A stretch of 64,000 nt of DNA from Diplonema papillatum (lineage: Eukaryota; Euglenozoa; Diplonemea; Diplonemida; Diplonemidae), in contig JAPJBO010000016.1 of the NCBI GenBank assembly GCA_030068145.1, positions 496,001-560,000 of the forward strand, written 5' to 3'. Both the position numbers and the translations under genes were made by a program. Below, in pieces: positions 4,113-51,530 of this stretch. The notes under the pieces are model-generated. The model did no database searches and was not told the origin of the DNA. It was given only the letters and a program-made list of their open reading frames with translations. Position 1 is the first letter of the stretch, and each line of letters opens with the position of its first letter.

Positions 4113-6480
4113 AAAACTGCTTGCAACGGCGGAATCGTACGGGTTTTGTGGAGCGGGACTCAGGTATGCGATGGTGGCCGCTTCGAGCTTGAGGCAATGC
4201 CGGGAGCTCAGGCTCTTGCTACCCGAGCAACTAGCAGATCCGAGCTGTTCCAAGGGACGACAAGACGCCATCTACACTGCTGGGCGGGGGGAGAAGACGA
4301 AAGCGATTCTTGCTTGCGCAGTAGACGTCGTCTCGTATTTTTTGCATGGTTCCCTTCACAAAGGTGTTTATTTTCTCTTTTTGGTCGGGACGGATTCCTC
4401 ACCCCGAGTCGCCGACCTTCGCGCAAAGGACCGGCCCACGGAGCAGATCCGGCACGGTGAGCATATTGTTGCATTCCCCTTCCCCCGTCTTGTCGCGGGA
4501 CTCACTGGAACACAGAGCTTTGACAATACGTTTGCTTTTCCCGGAAAGAGAAGACGGTGGGGGGGGATTGCAAGAACGTGCTCGGAATGGTGTGTGTGTG
4601 TGCTTGACATCCGCGCCGTGTTCTATCTGCCCCGTGTTCGGTCCTTGAAGCGGTTTCGTTAGGCGGGCCATCATCAGCGCGAAACCTGAGTGCCTGCAGT
4701 GTCTGGAAGAGGATTGTAGAAGAACGAGGGCAACACTGCTTCGAGTTTCAGTCCTCCTCTAATCTCCTGACACGTTGCTCCAGCGTGGATCCGTTCCAAG
4801 CGCGTCGCGCAAAATGAAGGAGAGGAGAGCCACCAAACGTGCACCTGAATACGACGATCAAGACGAGCTAAACAGATAGGGAAAAGCTTGCGCAAAGCGG
4901 GGCGGAACCACGACCTGGGCCGTGTGGGTTGCCGCCGGTGCCGCATCAAGTCATTCGGTTGCTTGTGTTGGACAAGAGGAGGTTGAGAGCAGAGGCGTTT
5001 ACAGTTTTTCTTCTTTCTTCGACTTGGCATTCCGACCAGGGATCTATTTGGCTTCCAGAAATTAGGCCGAAACTTGTGACCCTGGGCCGACGTGAGGTCA
5101 AACCAAATGAGCCACAGGGGGTGGCTCAATGTTGCCGTAAACAGCTAAGTCAGTGCAACTTGTAGAGAGAGGGTGGTTGTAATCTTCGCTCTTTCTCACG
5201 AAGGGGGGGCGGAGCAGTACTCTATTTGGTCCCACAATCGTGAGCAGCAGCAAGGTTCAAGTATCTCTTTTTCAAACAATTACAAATCTCCCAATTTTTG
5301 CCGTAAACCAAGCCGGGCCGTCCACAGCACCAGCCAGCCTAGGCTATAGATCCCTGGCCCCTTCCAACTTGTTAAGACTTGTTCACAGGGTTTGTCCGTT
5401 CTTTTGTCTTCTTGTTGCGTTAGTGGGGAGTCATTTGCATGCAAATGAGTACCGCACAACCGTTTTTTTCACTGATCGGCGCGGTGGTTATTCCACTGAA
5501 TTGAAAGGCGCGCTCTGGCTGGGTCGCGTGTTCGCTGTTTTCGACGTGAAACAAAAACAGAGTTATTTCGTCCTTAGTCGCACTCGCGTTGCGAAAGCGT
5601 AGGCGGACACGGTGGGGCCGGCCCGCCATGGCCATGATCGCAGCACTGATCGGACAGTCTAGGAAAGCGACCGGCCACTGACCAACTGCGGTGTTGGCCC
5701 AGTCGGTTTTGGAGCGGTCAAGAGAGCGGCCAACGGACATGGTGGGCCTGTAACCTCACACCTACCGCCAACGGTTGCATTTTCCCAAAGTGCCACAGGT
5801 GGGGGGGGGGGGTCGTTGTATAATGGTTTAGCTTGAAGGGTGTTGGAAAGGTTGAAAAAGGTTTTGGGGGTCACCGTCGGTTTGTGTTTTTATTTTTTTT
5901 TTTTTTTTTTCTGTATATTTTTTTTTGGGGGGTAATTCTTTTTTCGGGGGTTCGCGTAACCCTTCTTTTCCGGAAGATAACGTTATCTTTTCTTTTCTCT
6001 CTGGCGCTCTTTTTCTCTCTATCTCTCTCTTTGGCTAGCAAAGCGACTATTGCGACCGACACCACGACCACACCCGTAATGAATGTGATCAAGGGCCCCC
6101 CACGTTCTACATGTTGAGCAGGGGTTGCCATGTAGCCCGTACCGGTCTAAGCCTTCATTGCAGCTTCCATAAGCACCCCCGTTGGGACGGGTCCGACGGT
6201 CCGTTAGTCATCAGCGACATCGGGCGGGAAAAAGTAAATAAAAAGAAAGGGGAAAAATGGGGGTGTGGGTGGATAAGCTCGTGGTAGGTTGTTCGGAAAT
6301 AAGTACAACCTCAAACTACGCCTAGCACAGGGCCAGGCGGCATATACGTGCCTTCATCCTCTCATGTTAGTGTGCGTTCACTCGTACAGACACTTCGAGT
6401 TTTTCCCGTTAGTCAGGGTAAACGGGTGCGGAGTGAAATATAGACCAGCCAGCAATCAAGAATCCGATGAGGCTCAAACG
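4113..6480. other. No gene recognised; repeat G copy 2 and a pyrimidine-rich tract
   Basis: A second copy of repeat G lies at about 4630-4712. A G run at about 5802-5812 is followed by a T-rich stretch at 5888-6020 containing a run of more than 20 T. Several ORFs of 70-200 codons occur on both strands. They overlap each other, and none shows a recognisable domain. Confidence 0.5.
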
Positions 6481-6487
6481 ACGTGGA

Positions 6488-6960
6488 TCAGAATCTCACA
6501 CCCGCGAGGTGGCAACGTCTCTCATGCGCGCGGAGTCCCCTCAGACCTTGGAACGTCTGGCCATCCTTCGTGCATTCGACGGAGCAGTGTTGACATCGCA
6601 GCACCGGGGAACCTGTTAACTGCTGTTCAAACAACTGACCATGCGGTGTCAGACATTGGGAGTCCGGCAAGGGCGGGCAGGGTGGCGAATTACCAAAGGG
6701 GCAGAAGGAGTCAGGTGATCCTTCCGACTGCCGGCTCATCAAATTACCGGCTGAACCTGGGGGTGCAGGCAAGTCGGGTAGCCGATCCTGAGTGGGAAGC
6801 ACCATGGAGGGTGACGGGGCACGGACAGTCATGTCGTGGGCATTCCGGGGGATCCGGACAAAGGCCGCGAGGTAAACGTCACCCCACGGAATGTCGTCGA
6901 CAGAGGTGACGTGCAGGTCGTCGAAGAGGATCCACCCCGTGTCTTGCGCAGGTGCGGGGG
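6488..6960 (-). pseudogene. USP-type protease C-terminus plus C2HC finger (retroelement remnant)
   Basis: The minus-strand frame ending at 6488 begins, after a C-rich tract, with GWILFDDLHVTSVDD...VYLAAFVRI. This resembles the end of a ubiquitin-specific protease domain, where an aromatic/Asp block after the catalytic His is followed by a final hydrophobic strand. A proline-rich linker leads to a finger RCQHC...FQGLRGLRAHERRC. The same order (USP end, linker, CxxC...FxGxxGLRxHMxxC) occurs in the intact ORF at 47989-50052. The catalytic Cys and His regions and any RT are absent here. It is best read as a 5'-truncated relative of that element. Confidence 0.6.
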
Positions 6961-7555
6961 GGGGGGGTGGGCGGCATTGACACGGGAGGGAAGGTAGATT
7001 CACTAAGAAGGGGACTGAGCATGATCATCGCACCCGTAAGCGGCCACTGTGCAGTGGGCTCAAAAGCTGCGATTCCCTATAGCTTTCTGCCACATTCCCG
7101 CTGTCGGAATTCGCAGATGCCAAGAAAAATGGCTATAGAAGCGGCCCGTCGAAGGGATTCGGTCGTGTCACGAGCGGCACTCGGTTTAGCCCGGGGAGGC
7201 GTTCTCTCCTCCCCACTGGCCACCACTACCTCTACGCTCATCATACTTGTCACTTTGCCGGGTTGAACCGCTTCTTGTTCCAGCGCATCCATGTCATCGC
7301 GTATCCGATGATGTCCTGAGAAGGGGTGTTGGTACCTCTGATGATGTGCAATCGGCTAAGCTTAATTCAAGTACAAAAGGCGATGTCCTATCTCCCATCT
7401 TTCCAGTGCCTTGTGATTTTCTTCTCTCAGGGTAAAGAGAGCAAAGCATCGGAACCGCTTCCGTGCTCATGCAGAAAGGCGGTACAATCTCTCAAGCAGT
7501 GTGCCTCTTGCTCTGCTTTGCAAACTCGACAATGAAACGCGGCTAGGCATACTAC

Positions 7556-8125: not shown

Positions 8126-8261
8126 ATTCCGGGGGTTTAGGGTCTCCGTGTGACCGTTCATGAATGGGTTCTCTTAGAGCAAGAAAGGGCTATGCGGTTA
8201 CGGGTTGTATATTTAGTGCACGCTTTCGTTATGGGTTATGGCTAGCCATGTCCGGGACTGC

Positions 8262-9525
8262 TTGTTAAGCAGCGGCTGCCAAAACTTGCCGTGTCACCTA
8301 TGATCAAAGTAGTTGAAGTATGGCTAAAGATAAAGTGGTGTCACCTGTGAGGGGGTAATCTCAGGGCCGCCCACGTGATAAGCCGTTAAAGCAGTGTGAA
8401 CTTGAAATGCAGGTACCACAGGGGTAAGCTTGCATTTGTCATAGGCTAGGGTTATTTGAATACGTCGTCCGAGGACGATCTCAAAGCGGACGAGGACGGT
8501 GATAATAGGCTGGTGATATCCAGCTCCATTCTTCGTTTGTTGCGCTTTCGCGCCGGCTGTCCTGCCGAAGCAGTCGCTCGAGGGGGCGATCCTGACATGG
8601 ATGAGGATGAAGTCGAGGTGGCAGGGCTGGTGATATCCAGCTCCATTCTCGAAATGTTGCGCTTTCGCGCCGCGTGCTTTTTTCCGGGTTTTCCCGCCGG
8701 GTCATTCGGTGGTGTCGGGAGTCGGGCTCTTTTCTGCCCCTTCCTTGGTGGTGTCGCTCGGGCCGGCTCGGTCGGAGCGTGCTTTTTCGCCATCTTGGCC
8801 GCCTTTGGGGACGCTTGACGCGTCCTCTTCATGCGCGGTGGTGTCGTCGGCTTCTGTCGGCCCTTCTTCCGCGGCGTTGTTGGCTTCGGCTTAGCGGGGG
8901 CTGGCTTCGGGGGCGCTGGCACGTGGTGGCCCTTTTTGCAGCAGGCTGACGGCCGCCGTTCCGCTAGCGTCGGTAAGCCGCGGCAGTCGTCACACGGACC
9001 GCGGGCGTGTTCGCGGCAGTCATGGTGGCCGGCCTTGCAGCACGCTGTTGGCGTGTTGCACTCCACGCATCTCGTCATGCGGTGCCGGTCGCAGACGGCC
9101 GGAGGTAAGCCGTCGTTGTCGGCGTGGTGGTGTCGGCAACATGCCTCCGCCGTAGGGCCGTGGTGGTGTCCGAGTGCGCGACAGACTGCGCACTTCCCTT
9201 TGTGATGGGTAGCGCACTTGGGGGCATTCTTCGTCGCCTCCGGCACTGCGTGTGGGAGGTGCAGGGGATCCGGGTTGGCCAGTGGCGCTCTGGGGATTAC
9301 CCATCGCCGCGCTCTGTCCGTCCGCTCGGGCGGGTACGCCGGCGCTGTGCCGTAGCCGGTTTTCACCTGCTGCATGATGGTCGGCCCGGTTTCGGGCATG
9401 CGGTTAAGCAGCGGCTGCCGGCTTATCCCGTGACACCTTTTATATGTACGTTATTGAAAGAGTAGCGTTGGCACTCTTACAGGTGCATTCCCTCGTAGCT
9501 CGCCGGGAACGGGCACTCCAGCGAA
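8262..9525. mobile_element. Composite family B element carrying an ORF
   Basis: The left inner inverted repeat (GGTGTCAC...GATAAGCCG, about 8336-8385) and the right one (CGGCTTATC...GTGACACC, about 9417-9437) flank a single long minus-strand ORF at 8452-9399. The right flank to 9522 matches B1. The arrangement suggests a larger, perhaps once autonomous, version of the short B copies. Target-site duplications were not identified. Confidence 0.55.
8452..9399 (-). CDS. Cys/His-rich basic protein in a family B element
   Basis: A 315-codon ORF starting within 10 bases of the right B terminus. Residues about 60-160 are packed with Cys and His in short pairs (CATHH, CAVC, EACCRHHH, CDRH, CVEC, ACCKAGHH, CDDC, ACCKKGHH), as in a multi-zinc fold. 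No catalytic family could be named. The rest is Lys/Pro/Arg-rich with PRKK, KKHA and similar clusters. Near the C-terminus a unit ending in RMELDIT occurs twice (RKRNISRMELDIT and RKRNKRRMELDIT), and the DNA repeat is visible near 8510-8556 and 8630-8676. A nucleic-acid-binding protein of the element is plausible but unproven. No DDE or RT motif was seen. Confidence 0.5.
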   Translation of the reverse strand: MPETGPTIMQQVKTGYGTAPAYPPERTDRARRWVIPRAPLANPDPLHLPHAVPEATKNAPKCATHHKGKCAVCRALGHHHGPTAEACCRHHHADNDGLPPAVCDRHRMTRCVECNTPTACCKAGHHDCREHARGPCDDCRGLPTLAERRPSACCKKGHHVPAPPKPAPAKPKPTTPRKKGRQKPTTPPRMKRTRQASPKAAKMAKKHAPTEPARATPPRKGQKRARLPTPPNDPAGKPGKKHAARKRNISRMELDITSPATSTSSSSMSGSPPRATASAGQPARKRNKRRMELDITSLLSPSSSALRSSSDDVFK

Positions 9526-28300: not shown

Positions 28301-31300
28301 TCAGTACAGATGTACCCAGGGTTTTTTCTGGGGTGGGCTGGAGTGGGGATTTTCCCCACTCCAGATTCTTGGCGAAAATCTGAGTGGGCTGGAGTGGGTT
28401 TTTTTTTTCTGTTCATTGCAGCATCGCCAGAAAAGCTGCGACCCCACATCGCAACGCAATCGCTCCAGAAGTGCGGAAAAAGGGGCAGAAAAAAGAAGAG
28501 AAAGGAAGAAAGAAAAAAAGACGAGACAGGCAGGAAATGCAGCACGTGTTGACAACCAACGACGAGACCCACCTGAGAGAGTACAGAACGAGCCCCTGTG
28601 CGGCGCCGACGAAAACGAGATGACACTGGAGGAGGTTCTCAACGGCTTCGTAATAGGTACCAGGAACCGGGATGACAAGGCGGCAGAACGGGCATCGTGG
28701 CAACCAACAAAGACCTGCAAATCGGTACCCGACGACTACGCAAAATCGCCATCCCACCGCCTCCGCACGAAAGAGCGGCAGCAAGAAAGAAGAAAGAGAC
28801 GAAGGACCCTGTTCAACCTATCGCTTCGTATGAGCAGTGGGATCTTGAGGTCTCGCGGTTTTTGGATCAGAGCGTTGTCGTTGAAGACCTCGAAAGCTGC
28901 GTCGATGAGAAGGATGAGGATTCCGATGCGAGCGATGACTGGGCCAACGACGAACGGTTTGCAAAAGTCAAAGCTCGCTATTCGTGGCTTGTCGCGGGGC
29001 GGCACGGCTACTACTGTGCGCTGTGCCGGCACCACCGGATGCTTCTCCGAGGAATGGGGGGAAAGAAGACCGGGAGTGCTGCAGAAAAGTGGATTGAAAC
29101 CCCGTTTGTGAACATGGACAAACTCGGGGAACGATCTACGTCCCATGGGAACACCGCCTCTCACAAGGCAGCTGCAGAGGCAGAAATGCACCGATTGACC
29201 GGCGTGGGTTTGGGGGGTTTGCGAAAGGCCGCAGTGCAGGAAAACCGTCTCCAGCTCATGAAGCTGGTTTGCGTGCTCTATTTTCTCGTCAAGGAGGGGA
29301 TAGCCCACACAACCAACTACGAGCCCCTGATCCGTCTCATCACCCGAACCGACACAGATCTCCGGAGCTTTGTGTCTTCCACCCGTAATGCAACCTACAC
29401 GAGCACCAACATTGCCACTCAAATCCTGGAGGCAATCGACTGGGTCCTGAGGACCGAAATTGAAGAGCGAGTGAAGAAATCGCCGTATCTCGCAATTTTG
29501 GCTGATGAGACGGAGAATGTGAAGCACCAAGAGGAACTCTCCATCTTCCTTCGTGGAACATCGGAGCGCGGGGTGTGGGACGTCTTTTGGTGCATGCTTC
29601 CATTAGATGCTGGCAAGGATGCCGCAAGTGTCACTAAGCAGCTCATCAAGCGCCTGCGGTACCGTCTCCCACCAGAGGAACTCGCTCAGGACGCGGCGGT
29701 GCCGCCCTTGGGGGCCCCTGTTCCCGCAGAAAAGTTCGTGGCGATTGCACTTAATGGCACGAATACCATGAGCGGTGAGTTTGGAGGGGTTCAGGCAAGG
29801 CTGAAGTGGGAGTACAATGCCTTCGCTGTGTACGTGTGGTGCAGTTCTCACAAACTGCAACTGGCAGTTGTCTGGGCTGCCATGCTCACCTTTGACGTTC
29901 TCAGTTGTGTCAACAGCCTGAGGGACTTGTTCTTCTTCCTCAGGGCGAGTACACAAAGGATGGGACGGTACCGCGACACCATCCAGGAGGTGAGGGAAAA
30001 GGAAAGGTTCAGCCGAATGCCGAACAAAGTCTTGGTTAAAAGCGGTGATACAAGATGGTTGACTAACGAGAGATCGGCTGCTGTGACCCTTCGCACGTGG
30101 CCAGCCATTTACGAAACAATCGAAGACCTCCGGGCAGAGTCCGGAGACGCTCTTTCGACTGGGCTTGTCACACGGTTGCTGTCCCCGGCATTCATTGCGT
30201 CCCTCTTCCTCTTGCGTGAAATCTTTGGGATTGTCTGTCCTCTTTCCCTGCAGCTACAAAAGGGGGCCTCCGCTCTCATCGGTGTTTCCCGACAAGTTGA
30301 AGTTGTAATCAGTTCCATCACTGCCATCAAAGACCTCGCTCCCCCGACCCTGGACCCCCAGTCCATCCAGCCTGCCGACATTGGCTACCACACGTGGCCG
30401 CTGTACTACAATTGGTACATATCCGAGCACGCAAGCGGGAAGACAGTCGGCAAGCAATCGTGGTCCCTTTACCATGCTGCGACTGGAAAGGTTTACTGTG
30501 AGAAGCTAGTCGAGCAGCTCAAAACCCGGTTCAAGGATTACGGTATCGTGAGTGTGCTGGCTCTCTTTGACCCAAAGTACGCGTTCGGACACGACTGCGA
30601 TAGTGATGCAGCATTGATCGACACTTTCGTTGAACACTTCACAACGTGCAAAACGGTCCAAGTGACAGGAAAAGAGGACAGACATTTCCAGCCGATGTGG
30701 AGTGCTGCCCAGGGTCGGGGTGTGAAGCACGAGCTACCCCAATTGCTCAAGACCATTCAGATGACCAAGGAAAGGTGCACAGATCCCGAGGCTTTCAGCT
30801 TTCAGGATGCCTTGCTTTATGCCATGAAGCACGAGGCGCAAGCACTCCCACGTGCAGTCTCCGCCATGCGGTTGGTCGCCACTTATCCCTCAGGGACGAG
30901 TGCTGTTGAGCGATCATTCAGTGTTCTCAAAGACACCCTGGATCTTTTAAGGAACCGGCTCACGAGCGGACATTTGGATATGATCCTGCGCATCCGTATC
31001 GAGGGTCCACCAGAGCTTTCGATGGTCTTTTTGGAGAAGGTTGTTGACCGTTTTGTCGAGATGGTCCCGAGCCGTCGCCTAAACTTTGTGCAGGCGAAGG
31101 CCAATTCTGCATAGTGGGATCTGTCCCAGGTTGTTCCACGACTATCATTCCTAAATGCAGCACCCGTTTTTTTGTGACACAACCCTCGTTCACTCCCTTC
31201 CTGCTGTGGCAACTGAACCCATGTGAAGACAACGAACTAACCGGCCTAATAGGCACCAGGAGAACGTCGAACTAAGCTGCCTTGGGGGAAAAGCCCGCAG

Positions 31301-38557: not shown

Positions 38558-40204
38558 TTAGAGGAGTTTCATGACGTGTTCGATGGCTGACTGATTCGAG
38601 TCATGTGCATACGAGCTGAGAGCTCTGTACAGTTCACCGATCATCGGAGGGTTAGCTGCAAGGTGATCGCGGCACAGCGCCAGCTTCGCTGCTAAGTTAA
38701 TGTCGCCGTATGTGTGGAAGATCAGCTCCTCGCACCCAGCAGCGGCTGCAGCACACAGCTGCAGCAGTGCCTTGAACTCGGCATCGCCGCCGAAGACGCC
38801 GCAGCCCCACTTGCCTGTCGCCAGCGTCCGCGAGATCGGAGCCTCCTGCTCCGACGGCGATCCCGAGACGGCGGCGTACATCTTGTTGACCTCCCGCTTC
38901 TGAAACCGGCCCGAAAACTGCTTGCTCGGGTACATGCCGTACGCATTGAAGTTCACCGCATCCGCGGCAACCACGCATACATTGCAGTACAAGCTCGCCT
39001 TCGGTCCGGACACGTTGGGCGTGGGGTCATCGTACGGTCCAACATAGCAGAAGGTGTCGGAGTACCCTGTGTATGTACTGTACTGCCGGCAGCCGATGAC
39101 TCGGACCGCCTCTTCTTCGGAGAGACACTCGCAAACGAGCCGAGCGAGCATCAACCCGGGGGTCATGAGGAACCGTATTTCTTCCTGCACGCAGCCGTTC
39201 CCGATGACGCCGCCGCCGAGGTATCGGTTGGCGAAGTCGACTTGCAGACACCCGATCTTCGACTCGATGCATCCGGATTCGTCGACGGACAGCCGGGTTT
39301 GCAGCGGGACGGTGCATGCCTTCCAGTCCGGGAAATCTTGGACCGCGGTCCGGATGACCTGCAGCCTCGTCGGCGGCGTGCCGGCGCGCGCCAGCCGCTC
39401 GTACGACGAGACAAAGTACTGCACGAAGCAGTGCAGCTTTTCGACGGCCAGCCCCGCCTGCACCTGCGCCACCGGTGGCGTGAACAGCGGCAGGAAGTTC
39501 GCGTTCGCAAAGCCGCCAGCCAGCAGCTCCTCCTCGGTCGCCACGGCGGACCGCGCCCCGGACTTCGCGCCCTTGCCGCCCTTCTTCTTGCCGCCCTTTT
39601 TGCCGCCGCGCCGCGCGCCCGGCGCGTGCCGGTTCGGCACGACGCAGAAGAAGCAGTGCGCCAGCAGCGCCGCCGCCTGCAGCTCATCGCACGTCCACGA
39701 CCCCGTCACACCCTGCCGCAGCAGCGGAACAGGGTCCCGCAGGTGGGTGTGCGTGTCAAGGACAAGCGAGCACATCCACGGCAGCACCGACTCGAAAAAG
39801 TACCCGGGCTTGACGACCTTCTCCAGGCCGTGCTCCAGGTAGTACTCGAGCATTCCCAGGTCCCAGTCTTGCGCGGCGTCTCCGCCGCAGGCGGTGATGG
39901 CTTTGACGAGCTCGGGCCCGCCGGCTATCGGCCGGGACAGCGCTTCTTTAACGATCACCCACCGAGCGTCCGTCGGATCGCGGCCGAGCAGCGTCAGCGT
40001 CAACCCGATTGCCGGCGGCGCCGCGGGCTCGCCGGCATCCGGCATCGGCATGTCCACGTCCCAAGCGGACTCAGCCGCGGCTTGCGGCTCGGGGGGGGTC
40101 GCCTCGCTGTCGCGCTTCCGCTTTTGGCTGACGCTGAAGCCGGCAAAGCTGGTCAGCGGGGTGAGCCCGTCGGTTTGCTTTTGCTCGCGCCGGGCGGCGG
40201 ACAT
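38558..40204 (-). CDS. PARG: Poly(ADP-ribose) glycohydrolase, single exon
   Basis: It hydrolyses the ribose-ribose bonds of poly(ADP-ribose), reversing PARP signalling in DNA repair. The Met at 40204 is preferred over 40333, whose extension would encode an A-tract Lys run; 548 residues. An N-terminal disordered segment carries KRKR (likely nuclear). The macro-like catalytic fold follows, with CLQVDFANRYLGGGVIGNG and VQEEIRFLMTPGLM. GGG is at residues 330-332 and Q340-E341-E342 is the catalytic acid pair, spacing GGG-X7-QEE. Further family blocks are QYSTYTGYSDTF, FQKREVNKMYAAV, TGKWGCGVFGGDAEFKALLQ and FHTYGDINL. A low-complexity Gly/Lys insert (GGKKGGKKKGGKGAK, near residue 215) is unusual. 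No intron interrupts it. The catalytic residues are intact, so it is probably active. Confidence 0.97.
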   Translation of the reverse strand: MSAARREQKQTDGLTPLTSFAGFSVSQKRKRDSEATPPEPQAAAESAWDVDMPMPDAGEPAAPPAIGLTLTLLGRDPTDARWVIVKEALSRPIAGGPELVKAITACGGDAAQDWDLGMLEYYLEHGLEKVVKPGYFFESVLPWMCSLVLDTHTHLRDPVPLLRQGVTGSWTCDELQAAALLAHCFFCVVPNRHAPGARRGGKKGGKKKGGKGAKSGARSAVATEEELLAGGFANANFLPLFTPPVAQVQAGLAVEKLHCFVQYFVSSYERLARAGTPPTRLQVIRTAVQDFPDWKACTVPLQTRLSVDESGCIESKIGCLQVDFANRYLGGGVIGNGCVQEEIRFLMTPGLMLARLVCECLSEEEAVRVIGCRQYSTYTGYSDTFCYVGPYDDPTPNVSGPKASLYCNVCVVAADAVNFNAYGMYPSKQFSGRFQKREVNKMYAAVSGSPSEQEAPISRTLATGKWGCGVFGGDAEFKALLQLCAAAAAGCEELIFHTYGDINLAAKLALCRDHLAANPPMIGELYRALSSYAHDSNQSAIEHVMKLL

Positions 40205-40638
40205 GTAGCAAACCCGGGCGAGCCTCGCCGAATGGAGCGAAAGTATCGTTTTTTTTTTTTTTTTTCTCGGCGGTCTTCTTTTTGAACTCTGTTTTTTCTC
40301 CCCCCTCGCCGGACAGGAGGGTTCCAACGACAACGCGTGGCTACTGCTCGCGCGCCTGTGCGTTACGTTTGTCTTGAGCCGCGGTCCCTCACACGTACAT
40401 TCCCCCGCCTCGTTTGCTTGTTCGGTTAGCGGGCGGACCCTGCTTTGTCTTTGCCTTCTTTTGCCCGCCTACTCCCCCCTTCCTGGGTCTCAGACTGTTT
40501 GTACCCTTCGCACGAGTGCGGCCGCACTGCCACGTCAACATGTCTGCCACGACGTTACGCAAAGCCATTCCGGTCCCCGCTGGCGTGCAACCGAACAGGC
40601 TGCTCATTGGATATGCCCCACGAGAATGCAATGAAATA

Positions 40639-46769: not shown

Positions 46770-47988
46770 TACCGCGTGGCCCGCATGGTTTATGAGGCGG
46801 TCCTGTTGCCACCTTTTGGTTGTGTCGGGTACGATCGCAGATCTTAGAAGAAGAAGGTGGTGTTGGTCATGTTGGTCACCGTTCGTTCAAAAACTTGCTG
46901 GCAGACGAAGAACAAAAATGTAGGTACAAAGGTGTGAGTAAAGACACAGATAACACAGCTGCAACGACCACCCAACAGACGAACTAACAGGTACCAGCTA
47001 TACCCACATCCAAGGAAAGAACACCAACCCGCCTTGACTGTCGACCGGACACACAAAACACGGATCTTTAAACCGAAACAGCCTAAGAAGGTTGGTGTAT
47101 CGATGCCTAACACTTGCCAAGGTTATCATCACCACGCTCTTCCCGCCGACTCAACACGGCCGCTCGATGAAAACGCGCAAGCGAGGATCTATGAACTCGT
47201 CAATAGATCGCAGCGATGTACAATTTTTACCCCCCCCCCCCCCCCGGACAATCCGTGACATTTGTCACACCCTCTGCTCAGGTTAACCGCGAAAACTCGT
47301 TGAAGGTAAGCCTTGTCTCCGCCGGGCTCTTTTGTTTTCTAGCGTTATTTGTGGATTAGAAGGTCGGTATTTTAAAGTCTCCGGTTGACCGTAGAGGCTT
47401 GAGTATGGCGGGGGGTTGAGAAAAGTGAGAGGGTGCAGCTCGTTTCGGGTGTTGTGTCACTCCGTTGTGAAACCTTGTGAAGTCCCCTAACGCGTTTAGG
47501 GGGTGCTTGGGATTGGGTAGGGTGTGGTCGTTCTGCTACGGCGTGAAAAGCCAGGAAGTTTCGACGCTAATCTTCGACTCTTGATTAAGTTCACCGGGTT
47601 GCGTGCTCGTCAGGAAGATCCCGGTGCCTGGCTTTTCTTCTGGGTGGTTTCGTGTTGATCGGCGGCTGTGTGTTACGAGGCACGGATTAGGGGAAAAAGG
47701 AAAAAGAAATGGGGGAGAAAAAGAAGGAGGGAGAGGGGAAGTTGGGGTTTTGAGGGTTGTCCTCGGGGTACAGGGGAGGGTTTGAGTGACAGAGGTTACG
47801 CTTGCGCTGTTCGCATGAAGGCTCGTTGGCTCGAAGAAGTGGAAGTGGCGTAGGTTATTGTTCGATGTTATTCTTACAGTCGTAAGATGTGATAAAAAAA
47901 ATTTATTTAAAAAAAGCCTTATTTGACTGTTTGTTGTCCTCCACAGTCGGGGTTCTCTAGCTGCACGAGGCAGCCGTGGATGATGAAA
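46770..47988. other. No gene recognised; C homopolymer and AT-rich 3' flank of the retroelement
   Basis: A run of about 16 C lies at 47229-47244. The minus strand just downstream of the RT-USP stop (47880-47985) is A/T-rich with A and T runs, consistent with a 3' tail but not a clean poly(A). Confidence 0.45.
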
Positions 47989-50052
47989 TTAAGTTCCTCG
48001 CTTACTTTGCTTATTCTTTTTCGTAGCCTTGAGCGTGTGCGATACCGCTGGGTTTCTCTTGCATTTTGAGATATGGTGGCGTAGACTTTTGAAGCGCGCT
48101 TTCCCTGCGGTCCGTCCGTCGTTGTTGCAGTATGGGCATTTGCGTTTTCCGAGGGCTTTCTGTGCCGCCTTTCGTACTGGGCTTGTTGCTAGAGTCATCT
48201 CTTTGCAGTGAAGCATGTGTGTACGGAGGCCTTTGGCGCCTTTGAACTTGTTGCCTGCGTCCGTGGTAGTTGCTTTGCAGGCTGGGCATGCCCAAATCAG
48301 CGTTCCTTCATGTTGTGTTTCTTCGGATGAGGTCTCGTCGTCTGAGGTAGGGGTGTCCCCTCGCAGTTCTTCGAGCAGTTCGAGTGTTTGTGTAGGGTCC
48401 GTGTCGGTGAGGTCTTCTTTCGTGTACAGGAACATGTACGTGGCGTTGTCTGTGTACGTAGGTTCCCGGGAGTGTGAGGTGGTTTCGTTGTTGTAATGTG
48501 TCCAGTTTTGGTCTGTGAAAGGGGTGCGGTTACGTTTGTGGATGGTGTAGTGGCCGGCGTTCTCTCTTCCTGTGTGTGTTATAACAGCTTGGAGTTCGTA
48601 TTTGTGTTCGTGGTCCGGAATGTTGAGGGTGGGATCAGCTGCCACCGGGGTTCGATTTTCGTTTGCGAACTCGTTCCGTCTAAGACACAGTAGTAATGTG
48701 TCTTGTGCTGCTCGGATACTGGTTTGCGTTTCTGCTGTCTTTGTCTTTTTGCACTTGTCACATCTGTAATCTTTGGGGGTGCTTTTCTTGCAGAAACTGT
48801 CCAGACATCCTTGAGCGGTGCTGGCCTGTATTGCGAGGATTGTCATGCTGTAGGGTTGATCTTCTGTTTTGATGTAGCCGCAGTTGTTGCAATGGATTGT
48901 TGTCGTCTGTAGGTGTAATAATTCGTTGAAGGCGTCGCTGCAGTTTGGTTGGCACGTGCGGTGTTCTTCGTTTTCGTTCGCTATCGCAGCGAGTAGTTGA
49001 AGCAAGGCTTCTTCTAGGTCGTGTTGTTCTCCGTCGCCGAGGTGTGTGTCCATGTGCTCGAAGAGTCTTTGGACGACGTTTTGGGTTTTCCTGCCGCTTA
49101 TCCATTCGTTCACGTCTTGGGTGCATGGGCCTGTTTGGTGTTGTGGACAGTCGGTGTACTTGCGTATTTGATTTGACAAGTGTGTCGCTGCTATGAGGTT
49201 TAGCGACGCTTGCAGGAAGCAAGAGTTTCTTGTCGTGTATTTGCGAAGTTGCTGTGGGTGTTTCCGCTTCGTTTTGGCTGCTACTGCTGCGGCGATGGTG
49301 ATGGTTGCAACGAGGCTGGCTACTCGTTCCGTGACGGTTAATTCGTGTGAGGGTTGTGATGGAGAGTCAACGGAGGATGGTGATTCGCTCGGTAAGTGGG
49401 CTGGGAAGAAGTTAGTTGGCCTGTGTTTGCCGGCGTATTCCGGTTCGTTGATGCGTGGTTGGCGTGTTTTGTGTCGGGCTATGCAGAATCCAAGGAACGG
49501 CTTGAGCTGGCTGTGGAGTCGTGGCAGGTTGCAGAATTCTTCTGTGAGCCATGCGTTCCAGGGTGCGTATAGTACCCGTGGGTTGTGGCCTCTGTCGATC
49601 ATGGCATATACGCTTCTCTGAATTTCTACACGCAGGTCTTGTAGGTGGTTCGTTTGTCGGATTGCTCGTATCAGCGCGCCCTTGAATATCCCGCTCGCTT
49701 GCGCTTTGGGAGCCGTTGTGAGGTGGTGGGTATAGCGGGTTCCGTAGTTTTTCGGTTGTATTGTGAGGCGGATGTGCGGTGCGTGGGGAGGATCCGGACG
49801 TTCGACGCGTATCCGGACTCCGAGAAATACTACGTCGTCGTGTGCTGTAGTTGTGTTTTTGTACCGCATGTTGTAAAGGTGCTGCGGTGGTGGTGTGGTC
49901 CCGAAGTTGAGGAAGTCGTCGATGAAGCGGTAGGTGTGTGCGTGTGCCTTCGCTTCTTCGATCTTTCCTTCATCTACGAGGCTGTCTACGTATGCTTTCT
50001 CGATCCGATAGCAGAAAAGGTTTGCTATGTCCGAGCTAGCATTACCGCCCAT
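47989..50052 (-). CDS. Retroelement polyprotein: reverse transcriptase C-half + USP deubiquitinase + C2HC fingers
   Basis: 687 codons from the first Met. Residues 1-120 are an RT palm: GIP (before the Met) MGGNASSDIANLF, catalytic YRFIDD with D45-D46, then VVFLGVRI. The thumb-like GIFKGALIRAIRQ pattern recalls Penelope-like RTs, but lineage is unsettled. A Ser/Pro linker leads to a peptidase C19 fold: Cys box TTRNSCFLQASLN with C278, a CxxC pair (CNNCGY) and a CDKCKK pair as in USP zinc ribbons, and His box YELQAVITHTGRENAGHYT with H501, followed by WTHYNNE. Two C2HC fingers end it (CPACK...GLRTHMLHC; CPYCN...LRHHISKC). The RT 5' half is missing or frameshifted near 50080: the frame at 50094-50312 ends EAVKELLAISVTAT, which would precede YIAQGDQVLRQTDGIPMGG. 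GC is lower than in nearby genes. Confidence 0.85.
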   Translation of the reverse strand: MGGNASSDIANLFCYRIEKAYVDSLVDEGKIEEAKAHAHTYRFIDDFLNFGTTPPPQHLYNMRYKNTTTAHDDVVFLGVRIRVERPDPPHAPHIRLTIQPKNYGTRYTHHLTTAPKAQASGIFKGALIRAIRQTNHLQDLRVEIQRSVYAMIDRGHNPRVLYAPWNAWLTEEFCNLPRLHSQLKPFLGFCIARHKTRQPRINEPEYAGKHRPTNFFPAHLPSESPSSVDSPSQPSHELTVTERVASLVATITIAAAVAAKTKRKHPQQLRKYTTRNSCFLQASLNLIAATHLSNQIRKYTDCPQHQTGPCTQDVNEWISGRKTQNVVQRLFEHMDTHLGDGEQHDLEEALLQLLAAIANENEEHRTCQPNCSDAFNELLHLQTTTIHCNNCGYIKTEDQPYSMTILAIQASTAQGCLDSFCKKSTPKDYRCDKCKKTKTAETQTSIRAAQDTLLLCLRRNEFANENRTPVAADPTLNIPDHEHKYELQAVITHTGRENAGHYTIHKRNRTPFTDQNWTHYNNETTSHSREPTYTDNATYMFLYTKEDLTDTDPTQTLELLEELRGDTPTSDDETSSEETQHEGTLIWACPACKATTTDAGNKFKGAKGLRTHMLHCKEMTLATSPVRKAAQKALGKRKCPYCNNDGRTAGKARFKSLRHHISKCKRNPAVSHTLKATKKNKQSKRGT

Positions 50053-50093
50053 AGGTATGCCGTCGGTCTGCCTGAGTACTTGATCGCCTTGTG

Positions 50094-50312
50094 CTATGTA
50101 GCTGTTACCGATATTGCAAGTAGTTCTTTGACTGCTTCTCTGGAGTATGCGCGCTTCGTGTCGTTCGTCTGCCGGCTGAAGGTGAAGGTTTTCTTGCCTT
50201 TCTGTTTCGCTCCACGTGTTAGGTTAGGGTTGCCGTTCTGTTCTTCTGCCTGTATGCGATTCCGCCTGTATGCGATACTCGAGAAAAAAGGAGGGGGCAG
50301 GTGGCGGTCCAA
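50094..50312 (-). pseudogene. Upstream RT piece in another frame
   Basis: The end of this frame (YSREAVKELLAISVTAT) fits the helix that precedes the YxxxGxxxxQxxGIPMGG strand of an RT. That strand is found one frame over, immediately after (NSYIAQGDQVLRQTDGIP). A single-base shift within about 50070-50095, or a programmed shift, would join them. Upstream of 50300 no earlier RT motif is seen. Confidence 0.45.
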
Positions 50313-51530
50313 GTTTTGTTTTCCTTTGTCCCTCCTTCCCGGAGAGCTTCCTTTCTCTTCTAAGCGTTGTCTCTAACACCACAGAGCTATCTATTTTTGC
50401 GCGTAACAAAAGGGCGGATCGGGGGGGAAGGGGACAACAGCAATCGACATCGTCTTATAACATGACACAATCTGCACGTTTATTCACACAAGTAAGGAAA
50501 CGGGTCGAATACGAGCGACCGCGAATAGTGGTCAACACAGCTTGCGGCCACTCGAACAAATGATCGGCCCTCTGGGCACGATGATTTGACATCTATGTCG
50601 GTCCATTCCCACCGGAAGGACCGTCGTGCACCGTGAAACGTTTAAGGTTAGAATGCAAAGAATCTGTGGCGGCACAGCTCGACAACTGTTGGAATAGACC
50701 TGATAGGCCGTGGTGCGCCGTGCTAGACAGACAGGGTAGACCGGCTTCATAATACAAGACGGGAATGCAACTAGTCCCACACGGTCTAGACGGCGTACCT
50801 TTTAACACGGGTGTGCAAACAGAGATCATCAGCCTCACCGAGATGCCGATGATTGTAAAAACCGCTAGCGAATAGGACGAGTAAGCTGACAGAGGCGGGT
50901 GGAGGAGCGGATGCGAATCAAGCTGGGAGATGGATTGCAACGCAGTAGCAGTACTGGAGTGTCGCAGCTACAAATTGTTTTGTGTCACGAGGGAGGTGCA
51001 GGCGAGTGATGCCCTCTTCTTGCAAGTTGCGCAGAGCATTCCAACGCAAGCAGAAGGCCATTTGCCCTCAGAATGGAAGCGCCCTCTGGGGCTTCAGGAG
51101 TCTTTGCTTCTTCTGCGCTCTGCACACCACTGGTCCTGGATCCAGCAATAGCGGCTAGCGGAACAGATGACTTCTGCTACTTGTGGTAGAGGCTGCCGGG
51201 AAGTCAGATACGAAGCAATCGTCCGTTAGACTCCGTTCGAGCTGGGATATGGAATTCAACGGCTGCGTCGCTAGGGCAACTCGACATCGACTTCGGGTCC
51301 GGCCGGAAGACTGTATGCATTAAGTTAAAGCAATTGAAGCGCATAGCGACCACTGGCGAAAGCCTGACTTGTTGTTAGCAAGCATGTTTGTGCCCATATT
51401 TTTCAAATTTTGTTTCAACGAACGGTGAGTGACTAGCCCACCCGAAAGCGGGTCTTCTTCGTTTGCTTTACGCTGAAGGCAGGAGCCCCTGTGTTGCTTT
51501 ACCTCCCCCGCCCCCTGCGAGCTGACATAC
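50313..51530. other. No gene recognised; probable site of the last BILBO1-like exon
   Basis: A small phase-0 exon completing the BILBO1-like protein is expected here. Candidate acceptors exist (for example before GCTTTCGCCAG near 51360), but none is convincing. No repeats were identified. Confidence 0.35.

Follow-up and report, generated by a model that had tools for sequence, protein, structure and literature searches.

Whether a reverse transcriptase (RT) and a deubiquitinase can share a single protein of a mobile element, and what the element would do with such an enzyme, is the question raised by a locus in the diplonemid Diplonema papillatum, a marine single-celled flagellate. The locus lies in a 64,000-nucleotide stretch of contig JAPJBO010000016.1 (positions 496,001 to 560,000; hereafter the window), where a first-pass annotation had described RT motifs, a ubiquitin-specific protease (USP; peptidase C19) domain with two CxxC pairs, a His in AGHYT and a following Asn, and two C2HC fingers in one minus-strand frame. 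All of these features were confirmed, and the union of RT and USP in one open frame recurs in dozens of copies of the window family and in three further families. What the annotation had not seen is that the copy in the window is truncated, that the full protein carries an N-terminal GIY-YIG nuclease, and that the element has a Penelope-like look. Judging from its sequence, we lean towards regarding the window element as a truncated copy of a USP-bearing GIY-YIG/RT retrotransposon of the N-terminal-endonuclease branch of Penelope-like elements, with a USP that would free the element's own ribonucleoprotein (RNP) of ubiquitin.

Full-length copies and the truncated copy in the window

The genome-wide search for full-length copies of the same domain order, which had been suggested along with the initial annotation, was answered by ten fetched copies (L031–L040), nine of which carry one single frame of 2210 amino acids (aa) and the other a frame of 2199 aa. 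RT and USP as two neighbouring genes were ruled out by this single 2210-aa frame, as was the window frame as a whole protein, since the full copies extend beyond position 50246, where homology to the window ends. The full domain order was read in these ten copies and in two related elements, L063 and L064, and from the RT on in a third, L058. In L031, the one copy whose full-length protein was scanned against Pfam, the order is GIY-YIG, CxC linker, RT, USP and fingers. The GIY-YIG domain (aa 858–947) scored 27.0 bits against a cut-off of 22.6 (E 5.8e-6) and the UCH domain (aa 1796–2065) reached E 5.7e-14, while the linker PEHCACHRYN (aa 1148–1157, CAC) lies between GIY-YIG and RT and is followed by LPVDKT, HDFEDMYTRLP, GIPMGGNAS and YRFIDD, which we take to be motifs of an RT. 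The first 840 aa of L031 are Thr/Pro-rich and repetitive, and a loose TYEPQPY-like pattern occurs in them 13 times.

Comparison with the ten full copies by blastn delimited the window element at 47335–50246 (minus strand) as a copy that is truncated at its 5' end and intact at its 3' end. Nine of the ten aligned from 50246 to 47334–47340 at 97.2–97.5% identity, and the match to L040 was limited to 50246–47882 (98.4% identical). Because DNA homology to the full copies stops at 50246, the copy lacks roughly half of its RT together with all that precedes it. The open frame encodes 744 aa at 47989–50223 (minus strand) and ends at 50223 instead of 50312; as a frameshift occurs near 50120, its first ~34 aa fall outside the element's frame. 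Alignment to the full copies and to two D. papillatum gene models, P0002 and P0003, placed the C-terminal half of the RT, from motif B through motif C and onward, at 49459–50121 (approximate borders), with motif B, IPMGGNAS (aa 56–63), at 50035–50058 and motif C, YRFIDD (aa 98–103), at 49915–49932. The USP domain follows at aa 331–600 (48424–49233). The profile check for peptidase C19 turned out in its favour, with a Pfam UCH match of 54.9 bits against a cut-off of 23.9 (E 1.3e-14) that covers profile positions 6–254 of 254. Its putative catalytic residues are Cys335 in the Cys box RNSCFLQ (49219–49221), His558 in AGHYT (48550–48552) and, at the third position, Asn578 in WTHYNN (48490–48492); the Cys278, the His501 and the Asn after it in the first-pass annotation are these same three residues, counted from Met58. 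The zinc Cys pairs are CNNC (445–448) and CDKC (488–491). The two C2HC fingers, C646/C649...C673 (48205–48288) and C696/C699...C721 (48061–48138), are both also conserved in L058, and the 3' untranslated region and 3' tail occupy 47335–47988, with the tail motif GTCAACCGGAGAC at 47377–47389; all of these features lie on the minus strand. An RGD tripeptide just after the USP is likewise conserved between the window frame and L058.

A protein-level search of the genome (271 Mb, 2910 contigs) with the window frame, in which the best 60 of 1576 candidates were scored, returned 62 matches. Counted by hand, those with 95–100% identity number 58, the rest showing 93, 85, 83 and 46%, and 13 of the matches lie within a 2210-aa frame. 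The match at 46% led to a second family (L058), and the one at 85%, L041, was ruled out as a diverged subfamily: its lower identity is due to a frameshift, and its DNA is 99.9% identical to L031. Copies that are 5'-truncated and 3'-anchored are frequent, 14 of the 62 matches beginning at query residues 120–301 and reaching residue 744 (hand count), and a 361-base probe of the 3' end gave 1889 first-look candidates, of which the 40 scored were 98–100% identical. The nine full frames of equal length differ by only 0–18 nucleotides (mean 8.1 of 6633) and have unlike 3' flanks, and they therefore represent separate recent insertions. In five of the ten full copies, the 5' end directly abuts the 3' end of another copy, with a common junction 1639 nucleotides before the frame. 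An Rfam scan of L031, of L034 and of window positions 46900–50600 listed no hammerhead ribozyme at E ≤ 1, and folding of two 3' tails gave no signal (z-scores 0.09 and 1.49). The window copy showed no clear target-site duplication, just the 10-base TTTTGTTTTC beside its 3' end and again ~70 bases outside its 5' end.

The exact 3'-tail motif GTCANNCGGAGAC, common to the element's 3' end, was also found at window positions 8142–8154 (minus strand), by a Cys-rich frame at 8452–9450 (minus strand). With one mismatch allowed, the window holds three matches to the motif against 1.48 expected, a weak excess when taken alone; a similar tail, judged by eye, adjoins copies in L036 and L039.

Relation to Penelope-like elements

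N-terminal-endonuclease Penelope-like elements are characterized by an N-terminal GIY-YIG domain, a CxC linker and the lack of a canonical hammerhead ribozyme. The D. papillatum elements combine a GIY-YIG domain before the RT with a CxC linker (CAC in L031; CPC in P0002, L063 and L064), tandem or pseudo-long terminal repeat (pseudo-LTR) copies and no hammerhead found, and their 3'-anchored, 5'-truncated copies agree with Penelope-like elements in general. Partial tandem copies and the pseudo-LTR habit are described for Penelope-like elements in the accessible text of two studies (PMC11167929, PMC3846280). By analogy, we infer a Penelope-like placement of the RT, which suggests that N-terminal GIY-YIG Penelope-like elements are present in Euglenozoa.

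Several observations weigh against the overall interpretation. The profile check on the RT fell short, as RVT_1 matched the window frame at 14.9 bits, under its cut-off of 29.6 (E 0.023), remained under the cut-off in L031 (E 0.11) and in P0003 (E 8.4e-5), and matched none of P0002, L058, L063 and L064 at E ≤ 1. The RT in the window frame was recognized by its motifs and by the way it aligns to P0002 and P0003. Structure models of the RT and, from a single sequence with AlphaFold2, of the USP were both of low confidence (pLDDT, the predicted local distance difference test, 40.7 and 34.8, respectively), and the frame of L031 has no ATG throughout its first 408 codons, the earliest being codon 409; L032 has an earlier Met, created by one substitution. 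For this long, coding-like stretch, a start provided by splicing, by trans-splicing or by a non-AUG codon is possible.

The weak or absent RVT_1 matches could also be read as the mark of a separate class of GIY-YIG and RT retroelements outside the Penelope-like elements, all the more as no relative was found outside D. papillatum. A protein database search with aa 840–2210 of L031 matched solely the gene models P0002 and P0003 (two of 6942 candidates, E ≤ 0.001), a search with the GIY-RT alignment matched none of 7993 candidates, and two viral contig scans yielded no relative. The single NCBIfam match of P0002 is, moreover, a weak one to a group II intron RT (E 0.0032). Against such a separate class, the N-terminal GIY-YIG, the CxC linker and the head-to-tail partial copies fit N-terminal-endonuclease Penelope-like elements (for the tandem/pseudo-LTR habit, see the available portion of PMC11167929), and we consider it improbable. 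A search with the USP region likewise found no protein among 1655 candidates at E ≤ 0.01, and the GIY-RT profile gave only three unrelated matches in the PDB (E 0.23–1.7). The gene model P0002 departs from the element after the RT. P0003, named 'Kinesin-like protein 3', contains a GIY-YIG-RT fragment inside a kinesin gene model and, by eye, a second, L064-like RT fragment. In the accessible text of the D. papillatum genome paper, retrovirus-related, LINE-1, SLACS, R2, jockey, TATE, MULE and Helitron elements are listed, and the word Penelope does not occur in that text (PMC10161547).

USP families, selection and proposed role

Including the window family, four families with the RT-USP-finger plan were identified. 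L058 (contig C744) has a 1035-aa frame with RT, USP and two fingers that is cut before any GIY-YIG domain, and its RT is 62%, its USP 40% identical to that of L031. The other two came from a genome search with Pfam UCH, in which the best 149 of 935 candidates were scored and which returned single genes together with sets whose scores nearly coincide; counted by hand, these sets comprise at least 54 at 85.3–85.9 bits, at least 15 at 77.7–81.1 bits and at least 41 at 76.5 bits. L063 from the first set and L064 from the last were read upstream, the RT of the other members being assumed, and both revealed GIY-YIG, a CPC linker, RT, a USP with a canonical Cys box and one C2HC finger. Their GIY-YIG domains scored 22.9 bits (L063) and 22.4 bits (L064), just above and just below the cut-off of 22.6, and UCH scored 45.7 bits in L058, 82.3 in L063 and 74.4 in L064. 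L063 and L064 are 79% identical in the RT and 59% in the USP, and RT identity between the L031/L058 pair and the L063/L064 pair is 37–40%. The window also holds a 5'-truncated remnant of the L064 family at 6437–6950 (minus strand; frame 6488–7024), which comprises the USP end and the finger; it is 99.8% identical to L064 over 514 nucleotides, and its last 151 aa are identical.

In a tree of 15 USP sequences (seven from elements, eight from the host), a branch supported at 96/94 set the element USPs apart from those of the host, and the split among them agrees with the RT identities. The RT had been read in four of the element rows (L031, L058, L063 and L064), the other three (L073, L074 and L076) being USP fragments labelled by similarity; L073 was relabelled from host to element repeat after the first tree, and L075, L077 and L078 were omitted as near-duplicates. 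The host rows, L065–L072, were taken as host genes because their UCH scores stand alone. The tree favours a single origin of the element USPs, and the lineage probably acquired its USP once; such a single acquisition is favoured and not proved, because the host is represented by only eight USPs, three of the element rows were similarity-labelled, one of these was relabelled and the branches are long.

The domain itself is that of a catalytically complete-looking deubiquitinase. Searched against the PDB, a two-family USP profile reached E ≤ 0.01 with 82 sequences, and the best 60 of these are all ubiquitin hydrolases. The alignment to the best match, human USP36 (E 1.1e-11), starts at the Cys box and continues to the end of the domain, with Cys box, zinc pairs and His box in register. 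The catalytic Cys, oxyanion Asn, His, third-position Asn and four zinc Cys were kept in all 30 loci checked (L001–L030, the best-matching of the 62 matches), the window copy included. The catalytic and zinc residues are also kept in L058, L063 and L064, with Asp replacing the third-position Asn and, in L063 and L064, a CxC as the second zinc pair.

The USP might instead be a passenger without benefit, kept by its position between RT and fingers. Four of the less identical copies among the 62 matches (L059–L062) were chosen for comparison with the USP of L031. In L059, 24 of the changes are synonymous and 12 nonsynonymous, against an expected synonymous share of ~21% (binomial P 7e-9), and L060 and L062, which may share history with L059, gave binomial values of 1.4e-7 and 4.9e-8. 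The ratios of nonsynonymous to synonymous differences (pN/pS) were 0.14, 0.18 and 0.17 for L059, L060 and L062, respectively; between L063 and L064, pS was 0.726, with synonymous sites near saturation, and pN 0.251. These codon comparisons show purifying selection on the USP of the element. Not all data agree with a USP maintained in this way: L061 showed no synonymous and three nonsynonymous changes, the variable USP codons of the nine near-identical full copies comprised no synonymous and four nonsynonymous changes (with few differences overall), and in each of the family pairs given above the USP has diverged more quickly than the RT. The faster divergence and the nine near-identical copies would suit a passenger, although changes that are nonsynonymous only might be the pattern of young copies drifting after insertion. 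The residues kept in all 30 best-matching copies and in L058, L063 and L064, the low pN/pS and the retention of the USP on either side of the split at 37–40% RT identity all speak against a passenger, an already disfavoured explanation to which we attach hardly any weight. With the USP domain kept intact by selection, the elements probably interfere with the host ubiquitin system.

As for the target of this interference, we favour the element's own RNP, close to the proposal of the first-pass annotation that the protease could shield the element's protein from ubiquitin-dependent degradation. According to this scheme, the element RNA would be translated into a single polyprotein whose fingers and RT hold that RNA, the GIY-YIG domain would nick DNA and the RT would prime at the nick, giving rise to 5'-truncated and head-to-tail partial copies, while the USP would strip ubiquitin off the RNP, which would thereby escape the proteasome long enough for insertion. 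Nicking and priming at the nick are suggested by the domains and by the 5'-truncated and tandem copies; expression, enzymatic activity and the USP substrate are likewise inferred.

The main rival proposes that the USP acts less on the element's own protein than on components of chromatin or DNA repair where the element inserts, such as ubiquitinated histones, PCNA or repair factors, and so aids cDNA joining. A nuclease and a USP in one polypeptide would arrive there together, and the PDB matches include chains 3m99 and 3mhh (hydrolase 8), which we take for Ubp8, the enzyme that removes ubiquitin from histones in the yeast SAGA complex. This likeness to Ubp8 is, however, that of any USP, with USP36 (two-family profile) and USP15 (another PDB search) scoring higher. 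For transposon OTU and Ulp1 domains, the available part of the Ginger paper suggests work through DNA repair (PMC2836005). Action mainly at the insertion site appears to us possible but less likely. A third role, that of a processing protease which cuts the element's own polyprotein, we regard as very doubtful: USPs cleave after ubiquitin-like C-termini, and Pfam listed no ubiquitin-like domain at E ≤ 10 in the 2210-aa protein of L031, even if some viral deubiquitinases also process polyproteins, as the consulted section of a report on the PRO/DUB of turnip yellow mosaic virus describes (PMC5695851).

A broader and more tentative extension of the preferred RNP reading is that of an ancient Penelope-like lineage that gained a USP a single time, the enzyme having since then been necessary for integration and acting on ubiquitin both at the cut chromosome and on the element's own RNP. 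If this were true, no earlier lineage of retroelements would, to our knowledge, have had an integral USP as its defining trait.

Two further features of the window were recorded: an 812-aa open frame at 28676–31114 (plus strand) with a weak hAT dimerisation match under the cut-off (E 0.0047), and a poly(ADP-ribose) glycohydrolase gene at 38558–40468 (minus strand; PARG_cat_C E 1.1e-59).

Comparison with known systems

The closest counterparts appear to be Chlamys and Naiad, the N-terminal-endonuclease Penelope-like elements reportedly described by Craig et al. in 2021, with which the D. papillatum elements share the GIY-YIG before the RT, the CxC linker, the tandem/pseudo-LTR copies and the lack of a detected hammerhead. 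They appear to differ in adding a USP and C2HC fingers after the RT, in the long, repetitive N-terminus of the window family and in their diplonemid host. Canonical Penelope/Poseidon elements likewise join GIY-YIG and RT in one frame and leave 5'-truncated, partial tandem copies, but their GIY-YIG is C-terminal, and no deubiquitinase is described for them in the accessible text (PMC11167929, PMC3846280).

Deubiquitinases and related proteases are known from other mobile elements. Helitrons with VTD or OTU domains also carry an active-looking deubiquitinase in their main protein, with a proposed anti-proteasome role; in contrast to the elements reported here, they are DNA transposons with other protease families, and the term 'reverse transcriptase' is absent from the available text (PMC9741609). 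DNA transposons of the Ginger1 group carry OTU or Ulp1 proteases, and a Trichomonas transposase with peptidase C19 shares the protease family of our elements, although it is a DNA transposase, represented by one named protein and with no RT in the part of the paper at hand (PMC2836005). The non-LTR retrotransposons Utopia-1_TSP and nematode NeSL do unite an RT with a Ulp1-like protease in one protein, but, as far as the consulted text goes, that protease is Ulp1 and not USP and stands N-terminally, and the endonuclease of Utopia is restriction-like and not GIY-YIG (PMC4640811). An RT-USP fusion was not among the matches listed in the open-licence literature, whose coverage excludes the paper that defines N-terminal-endonuclease Penelope-like elements. 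Within the accessible parts of these sources, VTD, OTU, Ulp1 and one C19 protease are already known in mobile elements, and a USP fused to an RT would be a new variation on this theme.

The reason for which proteases of ubiquitin or SUMO, such as OTU, Ulp1 and VTD, recur across mobile elements of separate descent is an open question. The D. papillatum elements extend this set by USP, here part of the same polypeptide as nuclease and RT in a retroelement of recent spread and high copy number, and four families for comparison together with a measurable selection signal make the question testable.

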